From Candidatus Mnemosynella biddleae (GTDB lineage Archaea; Halobacteriota; Archaeoglobi; Mnemosynellales; Mnemosynellaceae), in NCBI GenBank assembly GCA_002011165.2, contig MTMI02000009.1:62001-126000 (forward strand): a DNA stretch of 64,000 nucleotides. The letters are read 5' to 3'. Shown one piece after another: positions 18,145 through 28,715 of the stretch (its first letter is position 1; the number at the start of each line of letters is the position of its first letter). Below the pieces are notes generated by a model that did not search any database, was not told where the DNA came from, and worked only from the letters and a program-made list of their open reading frames with translations. The translations under genes and the position numbers were made by a program.

Positions 18145-18303
18145 CTACTCAACGATTTCCTTCCAGTTCTCAATCATCTCCTTAGTTATGATTTTTATAC
18201 CTTTCTCTTTTGCTCTCTCCTCCAAACTTCTTCTTACGATTCCTCTAACTGAAGATGGTAATTTCATAAGAGCTTTCTCTGCATCTTCATCCCAGAGAAT
18301 CAT
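18145..18303 (-). CDS. Small PCP_red-domain-like protein, 52 residues
   Basis: Short ORF between top6A and rpo12, starting with an ATG that overlaps the top6A stop as ATGA. It translates to 52 residues beginning [19 protein letters not shown] and continuing with [13 protein letters not shown] and [10 protein letters not shown]. The pattern (Trp-Asp, Leu-x-Lys-hydrophobic-Pro, VRR, ExxAxEKG, ITxExh) matches the proto-chlorophyllide reductase 57 kDa-subunit C-terminal domain (PCP_red). That domain also occurs as isolated small archaeal proteins of unknown role. Function unknown; overlap on one side and a 13-base gap before rpo12 suggest co-translation with both neighbours. Confidence 0.75.
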
Positions 18304-19400
18304 ATTATGCCCATCTCGGTGAGTCGTTCTGGAAGATAAACGGAAGTGACGTAATCGAGACCGTATCTCGCTAAGGCCTGCTGCTCTGCTTTTTTATTCA
18401 TCTTCAACTGAAGTTCTATTTGTTCCCTCCAGAATTCTGTGTCAAATCTCGGGTCAGTCTTCATGGATTCAAGAGCTTTTATATCTTGGTCATTCAACCT
18501 GTCAGTTGGGAGTTTATATTTTTCAATGTCAACTGGTCTTATTCCAATAAACTGAGCGGATGGACATGCCATATACTCGGAGAGATGAGCGCTCTTAATT
18601 GAACCGTAAGCAACTGATGCATAAATTCTGTAAGACCACGGATCGCCATCCGTAAAGACGACAACAGGAAGTTTAAGCTCTTCATTTAGTCTCTTTATCA
18701 ATCTCCTCGTACTTCTCGCTGGCTGACCCTTCAGATGAACAAGAATTGCATCGTATTCGTCGTAAAAATTGTTCTCTATGAGTCTTGCATACATACCACC
18801 TGTCTCTATTGCGATGACCATTTTGGCATCATGTTCTATAAACTCCAGATTATCGACATTGCTTGGAATTGGATATCCTTTCTCTCCGACATCATCTATG
18901 CAATGGAATTCTCTTGTGTCTCCACTTCTCAGACGCTCTCTCAATCTTATTGGTCCGAAGATGTTTGCTCCATCTTCTTCAGGTGTTATGTGGAAGTATT
19001 CTCTCTGAACATCTGTTATAATTTCAAGATCTTCAATCAACCGATCGCTTTCTTGCTGTTCTCTAAATTTCGCTTTGCCCCATCCTTCGGAGATATAGTA
19101 AAGTTCTCTAAGAGTTGAGGATCTGTTCTCCTCAAGTTGATATTTTAAGAAATCTATCACGTAAGCGGTTTTTAGAAGCTGATAAGCTCCTCTTGCTCTT
19201 TTTGCACTCCTCTCGCTGAGTCTATCACCATAAACCCAGACTTCACTTTCTTCGTCAAATTCTATATTAAGCTTCGTTCTGGTGGGAATTTTAATATGGG
19301 GAATTTCCTCTCTTACGATCTGAGAATAAAGATCTTCGACCAAGTTCATGAGGATTTTGAGTGTTTTGAAGTCCCTCTCATTAATAATTGATTTAGTCAA
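18300..19400 (-). CDS. top6A: DNA topoisomerase VI subunit A
   Basis: A 366-residue Spo11-like DNA-cleaving subunit of the type IIB topoisomerase. The catalytic tyrosine lies in [13 protein letters not shown] (about residues 99-111). The Toprim domain shows [10 protein letters not shown] and [15 protein letters not shown] (DxD metal site), and [15 protein letters not shown] follows. The start is TTG 19398-19400, overlapping the top6B TGA as TTGA and preceded by GGAGGTGA. With subunit B it relaxes and decatenates DNA. Confidence 0.97.
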
Positions 19401-21343
19401 ATAGAGTCACCTCCAATCATACCTATCGTCACCATTTCCTCCTCGATTCCATCAACCACCGGTTTTTGCGGTTCTCCTTTTGAGAAATACTCGATGAATT
19501 TCTCCTCACCGGGTTTGAGCTTGACATCCCAAGAAAGAGTTACCATCCCATCCATTCTTTTTATTTTACCATCTTTCGCATCCACAACATCACCCTTCAC
19601 ACTTTGATATAACCTGAAACTTCTCATCGCGTCATCGTAATTCTTCAGACGAATAATAACTCTGTATAGTTCTCCATTCCTCTCTACTTTACTCTGAATA
19701 AGAACATTACCCATGATTTTTGCAATTATTGGAGATATATCAGGCTTTTCTTTGTTCAACATCTTTGAAATTTTCTCAACAAAAAGGGGAAGGACCTCAC
19801 TTATGATTTCCTCCTTTTCCTTCCTCTTCTTCAAGATCTCCTGTCTGTCTAGGAATATCTTCAACTTCCTTGCCACAGCTCTAACCGCAAGTTCAATTTC
19901 GCTGAGAATTTCATCTACACTCGCAACAGCTTCCTTTGATTCTGAAGTATAAGGAACATTTGTAGACGCAACATGAACAACAATTATTGCGGGCCCAATT
20001 GGAAGATTTCCGGTTCCTCCGGGTTGAGATAATCCATAATTCCTCCAGTTTATTTTTTCTATTGCTTGAGTTATGGCACAGCCACCTTGCTGATAGAGAA
20101 GAGGCGTTCTGTTAGCATACCTTATAAGCTCAACTTTCTCTTCCTTTGGGAATTTCTCGCTATAAGCTATAGCAGCTTCAACAAGAAATGGATTACCGAG
20201 ATAAACGGATGGTTGTCTCGTAACTGCCTCAACAAAATCTCCCTCCTTAGGATTGAGATTGAACTCCTTCATGAGTCCCTTTTTCAGCATCTCTTCACCA
20301 ATCGGAGAGAGGCAATCCAGTGGAGGCGCCGAGATTTTTACGGACTTTAACGCTTTTAGAATTCTCATCGCCTCTTCTCGAGATGCCTCTCTCGGATTCA
20401 TATCTGGATCAACATTTGCTATTGCACAGATCTCCTTTGCGGTTCTTCTTCCGAGTCTGCTGAATTCGTTCTCTAAAAAGGAAATTATCTTGGTTCTCTC
20501 AGTGTATCTCATCATCTTCATAAGCGTTCCGAGATCTATCCCTTCAGGATGCGGTTTAATTTCAATTGCCTTCTTCGGGAGTTCTGTTGTAGCTCTTTCG
20601 AAAAGCTCTTCAAAACCGTATGGATCTCTAAAAAAGATTCTTGCATGTGGATTGACTATAGCAGTGGATTTGAGATAGCCATAAACCGATTGTTTAACTC
20701 CAATCATTCTAAAAGAATTCTCTTCGGATTGGTTGCTCCCTCCCTCTTCCTGAATGGTTCCCTCCTTATACCCCGCAACATACTGACCTTCGAGTTCAAG
20801 CTCGACTCTGGTGCCTCTAGGAAATGGCGCTTCTGTCTCTCTTTCAACAACAATCTCCGGTTCATTGGTTTGAGTATTTATCATAAGCTCATAGTAGTAT
20901 GCTGGTTTAGAGGGATGAATTCTTGAAATAATTCTCGTGGGTTTTCCCGTAGTTAACTGAGCATAAAGAACCGCTGCAGATATTCCTATACCCTGCTGAC
21001 CTCTGCTCTGTCTGATAGAGTGAAAACGAGATCCATAAAGTAATCTTCCGAAGACATTAGGAATTTGCTCTTTTACAATCCCCGGACCGTTATCTTCAAC
21101 GATAACTTTGTAAACATCCTTCTCACCTTCAACTCTCTCAATCTCTACTCTCACATCCGGAAGAATTCCAGTTTCTTCACAAGCATCTAAAGAGTTGTCC
21201 ACTGCCTCTTTAACAGCGGTTATTAAGCTTTTTCTCTTCGAATCGAAGCCTAAAATATGTCTGTTCTTCTCGAAGAACTCTGCAACGCTAATCGCTCTCT
21301 GGCGTTTTGCAAGCTCCTCCGCAATCGTTAGAAAATCGGTCAT
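19397..21343 (-). CDS. top6B: DNA topoisomerase VI subunit B
   Basis: A 648-residue GHKL ATPase subunit. Bergerat-fold motifs are visible: N1 [14 protein letters not shown] near residue 45, N2 VEDNGPGI near 85, and the ATP lid [20 protein letters not shown] near 105. The transducer domain has a [15 protein letters not shown] segment (about 415) and the C-terminal region an Ig-like beta segment. A Gly/Ser-rich [11 protein letters not shown] stretch near residue 208 looks like a flexible loop. It lies directly upstream of top6A and is translationally coupled to it. Confidence 0.97.
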
Positions 21344-21700: not shown

Positions 21701-22960
21701 ATGAATATGGAGTTCATTCACGTCGCTGATGTTCATTTAGGTTATGAGCAATATGGATCTCATGAGCGTTTTCTAGACTTTGGAGATGCTTTTAACAAAG
21801 TTGTAAACTATGCCATTGAGAACAATGTTGATTTCTTTCTTATCTCAGGAGATCTCTTCAACAAAAGAAATATCAATCCAAAAACGTTAATTCAAGCGAC
21901 TGCAATTCTGAGAAGGTTAAAAGAGAGTGGAATTCCAGTTATAGCAATAGAAGGAAATCACGATAGAGCTCTTTATGGGGATAAACTCTCGTGGATGAAT
22001 TATCTTTCGAAAGAGGGTTACATTCATCTTCTGAATGTCAAGATCGAAGAGAGCGGTGTGAAACTCAATCCATGGAATGAGAGATCAAGATCCGGTGGTT
22101 ATGTGGAGATAGGGGATGTAAGAATCATAGGTATAAGATATTATGGAGCTTCAACCTCGAAAGTCCTAGAGATGGTGGAAGATGAATTGAGAGCTCTAAG
22201 AGATGGAAAATTCACAATCCTTATGCTCCACGCTGGAATGGAGAGGTACATGCCCTATGCGGAGGGAGGATTGGGATATGATCAGCTCTCAAAAATAAGG
22301 AATTTCGTGGACTATGTCGCACTAGGACACATTCACAAACATTACGAAGTGGGTGGATGGATATTTAATCCCGGTTCACTGGAAAATTGGAATTCTCAAG
22401 AAGTTGGATGGAGGAAAGGATTTTTCCACATTAAACTGAAAAATGATGCTCTTGAAGTAAAACACATCGAAAGTGAGAGGAGACCATTCCTCAAAGAGGA
22501 TCTTGATATTGGAGCTCTGAAAACGCCTTCAGAAATAATGGAGAGAATTAAGACGCTCCTGAACTCACTTGAAATTCCAAATGGATGCATATTCGAGCTC
22601 AACTTGAAGGGCTCTCTGCTTTTTGATCGATCAGAACTTAGAGTTGAAGAAATAGAGGAAATTCTGAAAGAGAGGGGAGTTCTCATCCCGAGAGTTAATC
22701 TGAACGTAGAGACCAACTCAATGAGAGAAGTTGCAGAAAAGAGAGAAGATGTGGAAAGATCTGTTCTCAGAGAGCTTGTGAGGAGATACTCTCAATATTC
22801 AGAAATTCTGGAGGACTTCGTCTCTACAATAATGAGCTTAAGAAGAATCATTCCTGAAGATCCAAGTGCTGAGGAGATACTTTCGATACTTGAAAGAGGA
22901 ATATGGAAGGAAGAGGAAATTTGGGACTGGAGGCGTGCATTTGCTGATAAAAAGAATTGA
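21701..22960 (+). CDS. mre11: DNA double-strand break repair nuclease Mre11
   Basis: A 419-residue calcineurin-like phosphoesterase. The five phosphodiesterase motifs are present: VADVHLGYEQ (I), LISGDLFNKRN (II), AIEGNHDRALYG (III), LMLHAGMERY (IV) and ALGHIHKHY (V), followed by the FNPGSLENW strand. The C-terminal ~130 residues are helical and should bind the base of the Rad50 coiled coil. It resects and processes DNA ends with Rad50, HerA and NurA, all encoded next. A second ATG at 21707 is equally possible. Its 3' end overlaps rad50 by 20 bases. Confidence 0.97.
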   Translation: MNMEFIHVADVHLGYEQYGSHERFLDFGDAFNKVVNYAIENNVDFFLISGDLFNKRNINPKTLIQATAILRRLKESGIPVIAIEGNHDRALYGDKLSWMNYLSKEGYIHLLNVKIEESGVKLNPWNERSRSGGYVEIGDVRIIGIRYYGASTSKVLEMVEDELRALRDGKFTILMLHAGMERYMPYAEGGLGYDQLSKIRNFVDYVALGHIHKHYEVGGWIFNPGSLENWNSQEVGWRKGFFHIKLKNDALEVKHIESERRPFLKEDLDIGALKTPSEIMERIKTLLNSLEIPNGCIFELNLKGSLLFDRSELRVEEIEEILKERGVLIPRVNLNVETNSMREVAEKREDVERSVLRELVRRYSQYSEILEDFVSTIMSLRRIIPEDPSAEEILSILERGIWKEEEIWDWRRAFADKKN

Positions 22961-25592
22961 ACTTGAAAATGTGAAGAGCTACAGAAGAGCTTCCGTAGAT
23001 CTTTCTACAGGAGTGAATGCTATAACGGGAGAGAATGGAGCAGGTAAAACCACGATTCTCGAAGCAGTTGGTTTTGCTCTCTTCGATTATTTACCTTACA
23101 ATCAGAGGCAATTTATCAGATATGGGGAGAGGAGGGGATGTGTTTCCATTGAGATCGTAGGAAGAGACGGAAGGGATTACAGAATAGTGAGACAGTTTGG
23201 AAACTCTCCAAAGTATTACGTTGAAGATGTTGAACTGAGAAGACAGATAGTTGAAGGCAAAGAAGATGTCATGAGATGGCTCAGAGATCAAATGAGAATT
23301 TCTAGTTCAATAGAGCCAGATGTCCTTTTCAGGGAAGTTGTAGGGGTTCCTCAGGGTAATTTCACCTCGATTTTTCTAAGGAGGAGGTCGGAGAGAGCTC
23401 CAATTTTCGAGGCTCTTTTCGGTATAGAGGATTACAGAAAAACAGCTGAAAGAATGAATGACGTGCTTAGGAAAATTGAAAGTGAAATAGCAGAGCAAAA
23501 GGAGAAATTAGGTGAACTGAGAGGTAGGACAGTTAATTACGAAGAGAGAAAGAAGGAGATGGAAAAATATGAGAAAATCGTTGAAGATCTCAGAAAAAGA
23601 ATTGATGGTGTTGAGAAAGAGGTTAAAAAAACACAAAAATCTCTCCAAAGGTTAGATGGGCTGAAGAAAAGACTGGAAGTTTTGGAGAATGAGTTGAGGA
23701 CTAAAAAAGATTTGAAACATATAATTTTCAAAAATTACGAGACTCAGAAGAGAGAACTTGAGGAATTGGAGAAGAATAGAAGAGAAATTGAGAGATTGAA
23801 GGAAGCTTTTGAAGAATTCGAAAAATTGAAGAGAGAGGTTGAGGAGCTGAGAGAGAAATTGAACGAGAAAGAGAAGAGAGATAGAGAGCTTCATTCAAAG
23901 ATTGAACTTCTCAAGAGAATTGAGGAAGAATTCGAGAATCTGAGAGAGGAGCTGAAAGTAATTGAAGAGGAGAAAAAGAGAATAGAGGATATAGAACGTT
24001 CCATAAGAGAGTTGGAAAGTTTGGAGACGAAATTGAACGAGTTAAATGAGAAGGAGGAAAAGAGAAAATTCGCGATAAAAAGGATTGAGGAATTGAGAAA
24101 AGAAGTAGAAAAGAAAATTAGAAGAATCTCAGAAATTGAAGAAAATCTCAAAAACCTTGATGAGATCAAAAAGAAGGTTAAAGTTCTAGAAGAGAAAAGA
24201 GAGAAGTTAAAAGAGATCTCTGAAGGGCTCAGAGGAATTGATGAGAGTTTGAAATATCTAGAAGAACTTAGAAATTTCCTTTCTTCAGGAATCTGTCCTT
24301 TCATTCAGGAGACTTGCTCCAGAGTTTCCGAAGAAGTAATAGAAGAGAGGAGAATGAATTTGAAAGAGGAGAGGGAGAGATTGATTTCAATTTCAAAAAA
24401 ATTGAGAGATGAGATCAAGAACTTTGAACAATATGAAACTAAATTGAGCGAATTAAAGATATTTGAGAGAGAGAGAGAAATTTTGAGAGAAGAGCTCGAA
24501 GAAATTAGAAAAGAGATCAAGAGACTGGAGAAATTTGCAGAAATCTCGTTTGAACGTGAATTAAAGGAGGTTAAGAGTGAAGTTGAAGAACTCAGGGTCC
24601 AAAAGAAGGTGCTTGGGGAACTGAAGAAGAGGGTGCAAAGAGAAGAAGAAATAAAAATATTGCTAAAAAGGAGAGAGAAGGAAATTTATACTCTTAAAAT
24701 TGGCATTGAAGAGATCAAAAAAGAGATATCTGACTTAAATGAGCTCAGAGATGAAATTAATAGGAAAAGTGCAAGAATGGAGAATCTGAAAAATGATTAT
24801 GAGAATTACAGAAAACTTCCTGAAATAATCGAGAGAATTACAAGGATTAAAAAGGAGCTGGAAAAGACGACGAGAGAACTTGAAAGGATAGAAAGAGATG
24901 AAAAAACGATTGAAGATGAAATAAGAGAGATCAGAGAAATTTACGATGAAAAAGTGCACGAAGAAATTAAGAGAGAAGCAGAGAGGTTTTTAAATCTTTT
25001 GGGTGATCTAAAGGGAAGATTAAAAATCGCTGAGGATGTTCTAGGGAGACTTAGAGAAGAGATCAAATTCTATGAAGAGTGTATGAAAAAGATGAGAGTT
25101 TTGGAGGAAAGAATAAAAGAATTAGAGAGGAGGAGAGAAGATGTAAGAAGGATTAAAGAAATTCTGAGAGATGCCATACCTCTGATTACTGAGGCTCACG
25201 TTTCATCAGTTTCCGAGGAGGCCAGAAAAATTTATTCTGAAATAATTGGAGATTTTTCGCAGATTCTCAGCTGGAACAACGATTTTGGTATAAGAATTAA
25301 AAAAGGTGGAGAAGAGAGAGAGTTTCTCCAAATGTCCGGTGGAGAACAGATGTCAGCAGCTTTAGCGGTTCGATTGGCTCTATTAAAACATCTCTCAACA
25401 GTTGATTTTGCCTTCTTTGATGAACCTACGCAAAATATGGATGAAGAAAGAAGAGGTAATTTTGCAAACTGCATTTCAAACTTTAGAGGTATAAAACAGC
25501 TAGTTGTAATAAGTCATGACGATACGTTTGAGTCGCTAGTCTATAATGCTCTAAGGGTTGAAAAAACTCCGGAGGGTAGCAGAATAACATGA
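22941..25592 (+). CDS. rad50: DNA double-strand break repair ATPase Rad50
   Basis: About 883 residues. Walker A is GENGAGKTTILEAVGFA near residue 35, and the Q-loop region is VVGVPQGNFTSIF near residue 135. Long coiled coils follow, then the signature SGGEQMSAALAVRLALL and Walker B VDFAFFDEPTQNMDEE. TTG 22941 is favoured, 7 bases after GGAGG; the longer frame from 22866 lies inside mre11. The central hook is unusual: the expected CXXC zinc hook is replaced by Cys452-x6-Cys459 (ICPFIQETCSR). Rad50 tethers DNA ends and controls Mre11. It overlaps mre11 upstream and nurA downstream. Confidence 0.96.
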   Translation: MLIKRIELENVKSYRRASVDLSTGVNAITGENGAGKTTILEAVGFALFDYLPYNQRQFIRYGERRGCVSIEIVGRDGRDYRIVRQFGNSPKYYVEDVELRRQIVEGKEDVMRWLRDQMRISSSIEPDVLFREVVGVPQGNFTSIFLRRRSERAPIFEALFGIEDYRKTAERMNDVLRKIESEIAEQKEKLGELRGRTVNYEERKKEMEKYEKIVEDLRKRIDGVEKEVKKTQKSLQRLDGLKKRLEVLENELRTKKDLKHIIFKNYETQKRELEELEKNRREIERLKEAFEEFEKLKREVEELREKLNEKEKRDRELHSKIELLKRIEEEFENLREELKVIEEEKKRIEDIERSIRELESLETKLNELNEKEEKRKFAIKRIEELRKEVEKKIRRISEIEENLKNLDEIKKKVKVLEEKREKLKEISEGLRGIDESLKYLEELRNFLSSGICPFIQETCSRVSEEVIEERRMNLKEERERLISISKKLRDEIKNFEQYETKLSELKIFEREREILREELEEIRKEIKRLEKFAEISFERELKEVKSEVEELRVQKKVLGELKKRVQREEEIKILLKRREKEIYTLKIGIEEIKKEISDLNELRDEINRKSARMENLKNDYENYRKLPEIIERITRIKKELEKTTRELERIERDEKTIEDEIREIREIYDEKVHEEIKREAERFLNLLGDLKGRLKIAEDVLGRLREEIKFYEECMKKMRVLEERIKELERRREDVRRIKEILRDAIPLITEAHVSSVSEEARKIYSEIIGDFSQILSWNNDFGIRIKKGGEEREFLQMSGGEQMSAALAVRLALLKHLSTVDFAFFDEPTQNMDEERRGNFANCISNFRGIKQLVVISHDDTFESLVYNALRVEKTPEGSRIT

Positions 25593-26596
25593 GTCTCGAT
25601 TTCTCGAAATTGAAAGACCTTTTGAAGGAGCTCGAGGAATTTAGATTTGAATGTGAAATTGAAGAACTGGATGTTGAAGAAATAGACTGCCATGGAGAGT
25701 GGGATGGGGTTGAAGAAACTTTCAGGACTTTCGAAGATTATCAGAAGTGGGCAATGAAGATGTGTAAGGGTAAAACAGTTGCAGCAGTTGATGGAGGTCA
25801 GATAAATCCAGAGAGATCTTTCTACCCTCCGATCGGACTTGTTCAGTCTGCGGGTTTTGTGAATTTCAATAATGGAGAATATGAAAAGATCGTAGAAATG
25901 GATCTCGTTATACCTGAGTCAGAAACTCTGAGATTTGAGGAATTAACTTCTCTGAGAAGATTCTCTTTAGAATGTAAAATGATAAAAGAGATCATGAAAA
26001 AATTTGGAGATAGAGATCTCTTCATTTTCTACGACGGATCTCTTATAGCTTCTTTCCTCGTGGAGCTATCTTCGGAAATCAGAAGAGAATACCTAAGGAA
26101 TATCAACGAAGTGTTGGAACTTTCAGAGAAGATGGAGATACCTATAATAGGATATGTGGACTTATCCTATGCGAGAGATATCCTAAATGAAATTGAAAGA
26201 ATAAAAGGAAGAAAAATCAGAGGCTTTGATGCTATGCTGATGGCTAAAAAGCTCAAGAAGTGGGGAGATAGCTCTCCAGTTTTCATAGCGAAAAGAGAGA
26301 TAACTGAAGAGTATTCCACCCCTATTTGCTACACGTATTTTTTGAAGTCCGCAAAAGTTCCTCCTTCACGGATTGAATTTCCACACTGGATGAGAGACAT
26401 GAAGAGAGAGATCGTAAATCTTGTTTTATCTCAGTGCATTTTTGGGGGTGGAGGATATCCCTATGTCCTTGAATCAGCTGATTCTCTAGCTCATATTGGA
26501 AGAAAAGATAGAGAAAGATTCCAAACCATGATCTCAAGAATACTCTCATCCTCAAGATCTTTTAAAAGTGAGAGTAAACGACTAAGGAGGAGATAA
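25589..26596 (+). CDS. nurA: DNA end-resection nuclease NurA
   Basis: A 335-residue RNase H-like 5'-3' nuclease. The first catalytic Asp lies in TVAAVDGGQINPER near residue 66, followed by PIGLVQSAGFV. A second conserved Asp is in FIFYDGSLIASFL near 150, and a third in IPIIGYVDLSYARDIL near 190. NurA works with the HerA translocase to produce 3' overhangs for RadA. It overlaps rad50 by 4 bases (ATGA) and lies upstream of a HAS-barrel gene and herA, the standard thermophilic archaeal order. Confidence 0.95.
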   Translation: MSLDFSKLKDLLKELEEFRFECEIEELDVEEIDCHGEWDGVEETFRTFEDYQKWAMKMCKGKTVAAVDGGQINPERSFYPPIGLVQSAGFVNFNNGEYEKIVEMDLVIPESETLRFEELTSLRRFSLECKMIKEIMKKFGDRDLFIFYDGSLIASFLVELSSEIRREYLRNINEVLELSEKMEIPIIGYVDLSYARDILNEIERIKGRKIRGFDAMLMAKKLKKWGDSSPVFIAKREITEEYSTPICYTYFLKSAKVPPSRIEFPHWMRDMKREIVNLVLSQCIFGGGGYPYVLESADSLAHIGRKDRERFQTMISRILSSSRSFKSESKRLRRR

Positions 26597-26598
26597 AT

Positions 26599-27144
26599 TT
26601 GGAAATAGGTGTGATAATTGGATCGGAATCCCATATGAAATACGTTGTGAAAGTATTTAAGGAGAATGAAGTAAAGGAAGTGCCAAAACCTGAGGATTGT
26701 TCTCTGGGCAAATTTGTGAAGATAGGAGAAAAGATCGTTGGAATAATCTCAAATACGACTATAATAGATCCAGATTACGGCAGGAGAATTTACGGGAATG
26801 TTGAAGAACTGAAGATGTTTATCCCAGATTATCTCGACGAGAGAGAGAAACTCCTGAGTGTAGTGGCAATAGGAACTAAAGAAAGACAAGGAGTTATATC
26901 TTCAACTCCTTTCGTAGGAGATACAGTAAGATTAATGGAAAAAAATGAAATTAAAAGCTTTCACGAAGTTGATGGCAAATTAAGGATCTCTTATCTTCCC
27001 TATCTCTACGAGGAGCCTCTTTATGATGCGATAGTTAGTGAAATTGTTGAAGAGCTATCTTCAATCTTTCCAGAAAGGAAGAGTGTTCTTGAAGGAGTTA
27101 GAAAAATGGCAATATGGCAGAGAATGAAGGAGGTATATAAATGA
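26599..27144 (+). CDS. HAS-barrel-like protein of the HerA-NurA operon
   Basis: A 181-residue protein starting with TTG 26599, preceded by AAGGAGGAG. The segment KFVKIGEKIVGIISNTTIID resembles the HAS barrel found at the N-terminus of HerA-type ATPases, which mediates subunit assembly. No ATPase or nuclease motif is visible. It lies between nurA (2-base gap) and herA (ATGA overlap), so a role as an accessory to the HerA-NurA machine is likely, but this is inferred from position and weak domain resemblance. It could instead be a HerA-interacting regulator. Confidence 0.6.
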   Translation: MEIGVIIGSESHMKYVVKVFKENEVKEVPKPEDCSLGKFVKIGEKIVGIISNTTIIDPDYGRRIYGNVEELKMFIPDYLDEREKLLSVVAIGTKERQGVISSTPFVGDTVRLMEKNEIKSFHEVDGKLRISYLPYLYEEPLYDAIVSEIVEELSSIFPERKSVLEGVRKMAIWQRMKEVYK

Positions 27145-28715
27145 TCATTGGACTTGTAAAGGGGGTTGGAGAGACCCCGAATGATTTCGAGTTTGTAACA
27201 TCAGATATCTCGAAAATGAGCATAGGAGATTTTGTGACACTTGAATATGAGGGAATGGAGATAGTTTCGAGAATAACTGATTGCAGACCGATAACGGATT
27301 ATCCTCCAATTATGTATTCTAATCCGGAGATATCACCTTCTGAGATTGCTTTAATCCTCGGAGATGAGGAGAAAGAACTTTATCTGGTAACTGCAACGAT
27401 ATTGGGGTATTACGATGAGGAGAGAGGAGAATTCATAAATCCGAGAATAATTCCTCCTCAAGGAGCTCGAGTGAAATATGCCTCAGAAGAACTTCTGGTA
27501 AAATGCTTAAACAGAAAAACTTCCAGAATCGGAACTGCACATGTTGGATACATGTTAACGAGGAGAGATATCGAAGTTCCCGTCTATCTTGATGTCTCGG
27601 CAATCACAAGCGAGCACCTCTGCATTCTAGCTAGCACAGGAAGTGGAAAAAGCTATCTCGCAGGAGTGATAGTTGAAGAGCTTCTATCTCCAAAAAATAT
27701 GGCTTCAGTTCTGATTTTCGATCCTCACGGAGAATATCACACACTTACCGAAATGATGAGTAAAAATGAGTTCTCATCTGAGTGGTATTCTCCTCAAGTA
27801 GAAGTTATTCCGCCAGAGAAGATAAAAATAAGATTCTCTGAACTCGAGGTCTCAGATATTTCAGCATCACTTCCAGAAATGAGCGAGAGAATGGAGATGT
27901 TGTTAAGAAGAGCATACGAAAGAATAGCAAATGAGCCTATCATAACAAGAGCGATGCTCAAGAAAGCAATTGAAGAGATTGCTAATGAGAAGCCGGAAAT
28001 GAGCAATACCGCTTCCGCTCTCCTGTGGAGGATTAACAGATCTTTCGAGCAGAGTAGAATATTCGACGACTTCGAGCATCTCTCTCTTCAGAGACTGTTC
28101 TCACCTGGAAAATGCACAATTCTTGATTTAAGCACAATGGGAGACTGGGAACAGCAGATGGTTGCATTGATAGTCCTCCGAAAGCTTCTTTATGCAAGAA
28201 TGGCAACAGAAAAGGGAATTGCGAAAGGAGAGAACTATTTACCTTATCCTGTTTTCGTAATTCTCGAAGAAGCGCATAGATTTGCACCGAGAAGCGGAGA
28301 ATCCAAAGCTATTTCAATTATAAGAAGAATTCTGGCTGAAGGAAGAAAATTCGGAATAGGAATGTGCTTGATAAGTCAAAGGCCTTCTAAGATCGATGGA
28401 GATGTACTCTCCCAATGTATGACGAGCGTGATAATGAGAATTGTCAATCCTTCAGATCAGGAGAGTATAAGGACATCTGTTGAAAGTGTTGGTCGTGAGG
28501 TATTAAAAGAACTTCCGGGTTTGACAAAGGGTCAAGCGATTGTAAGCGGAAGAGCTGTGAATACAACTGTGATGATAAAAGTTAGAGAAAGAGTTACCTC
28601 CCATGGTGGAGAGAGTAAAAATGCACCAGAGGAGTGGAGAAAATATCTCGAAAATAAAAGAAAAGAAGAAACACTTCCCCCAATAGAAGAAGATATCCCT
28701 GTTCTGAGATCTTAA
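27141..28715 (+). CDS. herA: DNA double-strand break repair helicase/translocase HerA
   Basis: A 524-residue hexameric FtsK/HerA-type ATPase. The N-terminal HAS barrel spans about residues 1-120. Walker A is LASTGSGKSYLAGVIVEELL near 165, VLIFDPHGEYHTL follows, and Walker B is VFVILEEAHRFAP near 375. The arginine-finger/sensor region is RRILAEGRKFGIGMCLISQR near 395. It drives the NurA nuclease along DNA ends. Last gene of the mre11-rad50-nurA operon; its stop overlaps by 4 bases the stop of the convergent gene downstream. Confidence 0.97.
   Translation: MIIGLVKGVGETPNDFEFVTSDISKMSIGDFVTLEYEGMEIVSRITDCRPITDYPPIMYSNPEISPSEIALILGDEEKELYLVTATILGYYDEERGEFINPRIIPPQGARVKYASEELLVKCLNRKTSRIGTAHVGYMLTRRDIEVPVYLDVSAITSEHLCILASTGSGKSYLAGVIVEELLSPKNMASVLIFDPHGEYHTLTEMMSKNEFSSEWYSPQVEVIPPEKIKIRFSELEVSDISASLPEMSERMEMLLRRAYERIANEPIITRAMLKKAIEEIANEKPEMSNTASALLWRINRSFEQSRIFDDFEHLSLQRLFSPGKCTILDLSTMGDWEQQMVALIVLRKLLYARMATEKGIAKGENYLPYPVFVILEEAHRFAPRSGESKAISIIRRILAEGRKFGIGMCLISQRPSKIDGDVLSQCMTSVIMRIVNPSDQESIRTSVESVGREVLKELPGLTKGQAIVSGRAVNTTVMIKVRERVTSHGGESKNAPEEWRKYLENKRKEETLPPIEEDIPVLRS

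Follow-up and report, generated by a model that had tools for sequence, protein, structure and literature searches.

A respaced CX6C cysteine hook in a branch of archaeal and bacterial Rad50 proteins

Results

A Rad50 gene in a conserved repair operon

We analyzed a window of 64,000 nucleotides from Candidatus Mnemosynella biddleae (contig MTMI02000009.1, positions 62,001 to 126,000), numbered here from its first letter; "the window" refers to this whole stretch. It carries a Rad50 gene between genes for Mre11 and NurA, and we located the following genes and features:

21701..22960, forward strand: Mre11 nuclease, the Rad50 partner (Metallophos; Mre11_Pyroc 140 bits, below its 600-bit cut-off)
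22941..25592, forward strand: Rad50, 883 aa (TTG start at 22941, stop ending at 25592; head-coil-hook-coil-head)
23028-23051, forward strand: Walker A of Rad50, GENGAGKT
24183..24422, forward strand: hook and flanking coiled-coil arms, the 80-residue fragment used for alignment and structure modeling
24294..24317, forward strand: CX6C hook motif, C452-P-F-I-Q-E-T-C459, by in-frame translation
25335-25349, forward strand: ABC signature of Rad50, SGGEQ
25413-25430, forward strand: Walker B of Rad50, FFDEPT
25589..26596, forward strand: NurA nuclease (PF09376, E 9e-25)
26599..27144, forward strand: orf181, a conserved 181-aa ORF between NurA and HerA, without a Pfam match
27141..28715, forward strand: HerA helicase (PF01935 HerA central domain, E 8e-42)

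The Mre11 and Rad50 ORFs overlap by 20 bases at the 5' end of Rad50. Family matches and gene order bear out the initial annotation of Mre11, NurA and HerA as neighbors of Rad50. The order Mre11-Rad50-NurA-orf181-HerA is common to Archaeoglobi, Chloroflexi and Methanoperedens, and Mre11 adjoins Rad50 in most relatives. The position of orf181 in the gap between NurA and HerA is kept in the operons of Chloroflexi, Myxococcota and Methanoperedens; at the Myxococcota locus, the part of the operon from Rad50 to HerA was seen.

The window protein has a split head, a long antiparallel coiled coil that turns in a small loop at its apex, and an adjacent Mre11, features by which the Rad50/SbcC family is recognized. 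Its ABC-ATPase head is intact, with Walker A, signature and Walker B all present, and the protein matches AAA_23 (E 2e-21) and solved Rad50 heads (best E 1e-24). The best NCBIfam model is Rad50 PRK03918, at 231 bits, well short of its 700-bit cut-off, so the protein is Rad50-like yet lies outside the curated NCBIfam lineages. An identity as an Archaea-specific SMC-related protein (ASRP) was rejected, as that model reached 128 bits against a cut-off of 300 and the Rad50 models score above it. When the genome (1.50 Mb, 11 contigs) was searched for Rad50, the window protein was the single match.

No CXXC is present at the apex of this Rad50, which has CX6C instead. The codons TGT CCT TTC ATT CAG GAG ACT TGC (24294-24317, forward strand) read in frame as C-P-F-I-Q-E-T-C, confirming the Cys452 to Cys459 motif that had been reported at the hook position together with its residue numbering, and the motif falls inside the interval first assigned to it (24270-24340). 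It lies roughly halfway along the coiled coil, separated from the N-terminal head by about 290 residues and from the C-terminal head by about 280. The only other cysteines are at residues 67, 714 and 844, in agreement with the earlier remark that none lies nearby.

The cysteine pair is under selection in Archaeoglobi

All 24 Archaeoglobi Rad50s of the window's clade (the window, the same-genus genome G001 and 22 others) carry CX6C. The hook of G001, whose Rad50 is 57% identical to that of the window, reads CPFIQESC, so the CX6C of the window is not an assembly error; with the motif in all clade members, a frame error is ruled out as well. In a full-length alignment of 19 of the 24, the only invariant columns between residues ~170 and 745, about 580 coiled-coil residues, are the C, P and C of the hook. 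The pair thus keeps its spacing in every member and stands in the sole invariant columns of the coiled coil, which reflects purifying selection on it and not chance. The named relatives recovered for the window Rad50 belong to Archaeoglobales and Archaeoglobaceae.

A CX6C Rad50 and a CXXC Rad50 occurred together in none of the 40 Archaeoglobi genomes searched, and this mutual exclusion suggests functional equivalence. The CXXC Rad50s of other Archaeoglobaceae (L025, L030) come from the same archaeal class and also have Mre11 and HerA neighbors, but they form a separate deep clade with a CPVCGREL hook and the order HerA-Mre11-Rad50, the order seen in most of the Archaeoglobi CXXC genomes checked.

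Archaeoglobi loci L141-L157 carry one of two Mre11-Rad50 operons, of the CX6C or the CXXC type, apparently in a mutually exclusive manner. The existence of two exclusive operon types suggests whole-operon replacement. At L143 (genome G016, Archaeoglobi), there are two divergent CXXC Rad50s, each next to Mre11 and HerA.

CX6C hooks are widespread in archaea and bacteria

A scan of about 85,000 GTDB species yielded 477 encoded relatives, and hooks were read in the best 80 of these 477. Among those 80, CX6C hooks were found in Archaeoglobi, Acidobacteria, Lokiarchaeota/Prometheoarchaeum, one Sericytochromatia genome, one Myxococcota genome and some Chloroflexi. CX7C hooks were found in ANME-2, other Methanosarcinales, Methanoperedens and Methanocella, and many other Chloroflexi of the same clade have ordinary CX2C hooks. 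Across 100 distinct CX6C hooks, the taxa also include Asgard and other archaea. Within the window's phylum, 39 of 295 genomes gave hook-profile matches, and further matches came from the phyla of an acidobacterial, a Chloroflexi and a Lokiarchaeota locus (9/149, 29/151 and 6/99 genomes, respectively). Inspection of 40 hook-profile and related matches gave 36 CX6C hooks, one CX7C hook, two weak Asgard CX2C hooks and one sequence without the motif.

The variant had been presented as a peculiarity of one protein, but it is fixed across a broad Rad50 branch, and its occurrence in many archaeal and bacterial relatives rules out an oddity confined to the window's genome. The initial annotation had also allowed that CX6C might be common and bind zinc conventionally; on the first of these two points, the variant is indeed common. 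Three cyanobacterial clade members (L077, L102 and L107; two Roseofilum and one UBA2566) lack an apical cysteine pair, which indicates that at least one branch can do without a cysteine hook. No Mre11 match was found near these three genes.

The second cysteine and a core leucine differ in position between CX6C and CX2C hooks

The C, P and C are invariant in 67 aligned CX6C hooks and in the 100 distinct ones, for which the consensus is G-phi-CP[IFLYV][LFI]-x-[EQ]-x-C-x-[NR]-[ILVM]. Counting from the first cysteine, position +3 is Cys and position +7 is Leu in all 25 CX2C hooks examined, whereas in CX6C hooks +3 is Leu, Phe, Ile or Tyr (95/100) and +7 is Cys (100/100). Profile-profile comparison of the two hook types was gap-free from the CP through +7. 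This disfavors a simple four-residue insertion, and the earlier description of "four extra residues" between the cysteines is, judged from the hook profiles, probably wrong, or at least unsupported. The simplest reading of these profiles would be a swap of the second ligand with the core hydrophobic residue between +3 and +7, and the corresponding side chains may likewise have been exchanged in three-dimensional space. Hook peptides of Pyrococcus furiosus depend not only on the cysteines but also on Val446 and on Leu451 (at +7), which make up a stabilizing hydrophobic core (PMC5093744).

We modeled the 80-residue tip fragment of the window with AlphaFold2 from a 67-row alignment, as a monomer without metal. 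The predicted structure (mean pLDDT 88) is a helical hairpin with helices at 2-34 and 50-79 and the motif in the loop at 35-49, where pLDDT is about 66-75. A control CX2C tip from another Archaeoglobi genome was predicted with a shorter, confident loop. In the models, the first cysteine is 12 residues from the second helix in CX6C and 9 in the CX2C control, which also speaks against a simple insertion of four; as the CX6C loop is of moderate confidence, the model cannot settle insertion versus exchange. A Foldseek search with the hook model turned up nothing significant in the PDB (E 0.75 at best, with the Rad50 hooks 5gox and 1l8d among the weak matches), a result that is uninformative because helical hairpins weakly match everything.

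Hook types exchange within one clade and one operon

We built a Rad50 tree from head-domain columns only, leaving out the coiled coil; it has several long branches. The CX6C hooks, the CX7C hooks and some of the CX2C hooks fall in one well-supported group (100/99), outside which lie the CXXC Rad50s of other Archaeoglobaceae. The CX6C Chloroflexi sequences L059 and L067 are placed beside CX2C Chloroflexi. Five changes in total suffice for the four hook states on this tree, which was midpoint-rooted and therefore does not show the direction of hook change.

The gene order Mre11-Rad50-NurA-orf181-HerA occurs with a CX6C hook (L059, L065, L067 and L082), with a CX2C hook (L095, and L090 with a partial HerA) and with a CX7C hook (L100). 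The CX2C Chloroflexi Rad50s (L055, L095) belong to the same head-domain clade as the window protein, but their hooks are of the ordinary CXXC kind, for example CPVCEEPL and CPTCEADL. The CX7C Rad50s of ANME-2, Methanoperedens and Methanocella (L052, L100, L071) are also members of this clade and their motifs start with CPIL or CPVL/CPVF, but they have one more residue between the cysteines than CX6C. From the swapping of CX2C, CX6C and CX7C within one clade and operon, together with the exclusion between CX6C and CXXC in Archaeoglobi, we infer that the hook types do the same job.

Discussion

Strict conservation of the motif, its exchange with CX2C and CX7C within the clade, and the shared operon are best read as evidence of a working hook. 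We consider it likely that CX6C is a genuine Mre11-Rad50 dimerization hook in a respaced form, most probably a Zn(Cys)4 site built from two tips. Each Rad50 would present two cysteines from its apical loop and, where two tips meet, the four cysteines would together bind a single metal ion, in all likelihood Zn2+, in the manner of CXXC hooks. Compared with a CXXC hook, the second ligand would have shifted from +3 to +7, the former place of the conserved Leu, with Leu, Ile or Phe occupying +3. Both the intermolecular binding and the identity of the metal are proposals. The geometry of the metal site would differ from that of CXXC, as the initial annotation rightly anticipated. The Rad50 hook is a dimerization module that even an SMC hinge can replace (PMC6969161).

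The likeness to the canonical zinc hook (PF04423; P. furiosus 1L8D, human 5GOX) lies in the position at the coiled-coil apex, the Cys-Pro followed by a hydrophobic residue, the two cysteines per chain and the Mre11 partner. The CX6C hook differs in having its second Cys at +7 instead of +3, a hydrophobic residue at +3 in place of the invariant Leu at +7, and no EHR after the motif.

The apical loop could instead be locked by a disulfide between the two cysteines of one chain, or by a redox switch made of them, with Rad50 dimerizing in another way. Loop cysteines seven positions apart could come close, and disulfides occur in some cytosolic proteins of hyperthermophiles. However, the motif is retained in bacteria and archaea with very different redox lifestyles, exchanges with CX2C and CX7C inside the clade, and shares its Cys-Pro start and hydrophobic +2 with zinc hooks, so that we regard a disulfide as unlikely. 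Alternatively, the bridge between two Rad50 chains might be a different metal center, such as an iron-sulfur cluster held by two cysteines per subunit, as in the nitrogenase iron protein. With two cysteines from each chain, a two-fold interface would have four ligands, a larger center could be favored by the wider spacing, and the lineage of the window is presumably anaerobic, judging from its relatives. This proposal appears very improbable given that CX6C is also found in groups with aerobic members, Ktedonobacteria (Thermogemmatispora) and Pyrinomonadaceae, and that the CX2C hooks replacing it within the clade match the zinc-hook model PF04423, which points to zinc. Ktedonobacteria (Thermogemmatispora) and Pyrinomonadaceae are known to include aerobes.

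Zinc might otherwise be held within one chain or in a higher oligomer, the remaining ligands coming from other side chains. The conserved Glu/Gln at +5 and Asn/Arg at +9 could contribute, but neither position is invariant, and the surroundings of the apex offer neither a conserved His nor a third conserved Cys; we give this arrangement little credence. A disulfide or another metal had been put forward as explanations when the motif was first noted. Nothing favors either above zinc, and a metal-hook function common to all three spacings accounts better for the interchange of CX2C, CX6C and CX7C. In the CX6C hook, a disulfide or an iron-sulfur center is possible but less likely than the two-tip zinc hook.

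The zinc hook has been presented as a conserved CXXC motif from archaea to humans (PMC5093744), and in a 2025 paper the absence of CXXC was taken as evidence against a Rad50/SbcC identity (PMC12153180). With CX6C or CX7C hooks present in a large clade, CXXC fails as a criterion for Rad50. PF04423 (Rad50_zn_hook) likewise overlooks such hooks: it matches CX2C relatives of the window Rad50, and gave no match to the CX6C sequences tested (window, L059) or to the CX7C sequence tested (L052). Our literature search found no paper that names CX6C or an atypical zinc hook together with Rad50, although such an absence is no proof. Going by sequence comparison, CX6C appears to be a new form of a known hook, for which we found no description in the literature. 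More tentatively, it may represent a further class of Rad50 metal hook that has been overlooked in both archaea and bacteria, one whose metal ligand and core leucine have traded places and whose spacing (2, 6 or 7) has been re-tuned within one conserved repair operon. Such a class, if real, could have a different metal affinity or dimer angle, and possibly a non-zinc center. The natural CX2C, CX6C and CX7C hooks of this single clade offer a ready set for relating spacing to metal affinity and dimer geometry.

Among the remaining genes of the locus, we suspected orf181 to be a HAS-barrel relative of the HerA N-terminus; this found no support and seems most improbable. DNA topoisomerase VI subunits A and B (18300-21343, reverse strand) adjoin the Mre11-Rad50 operon in the window, and likewise in the same-genus genome.
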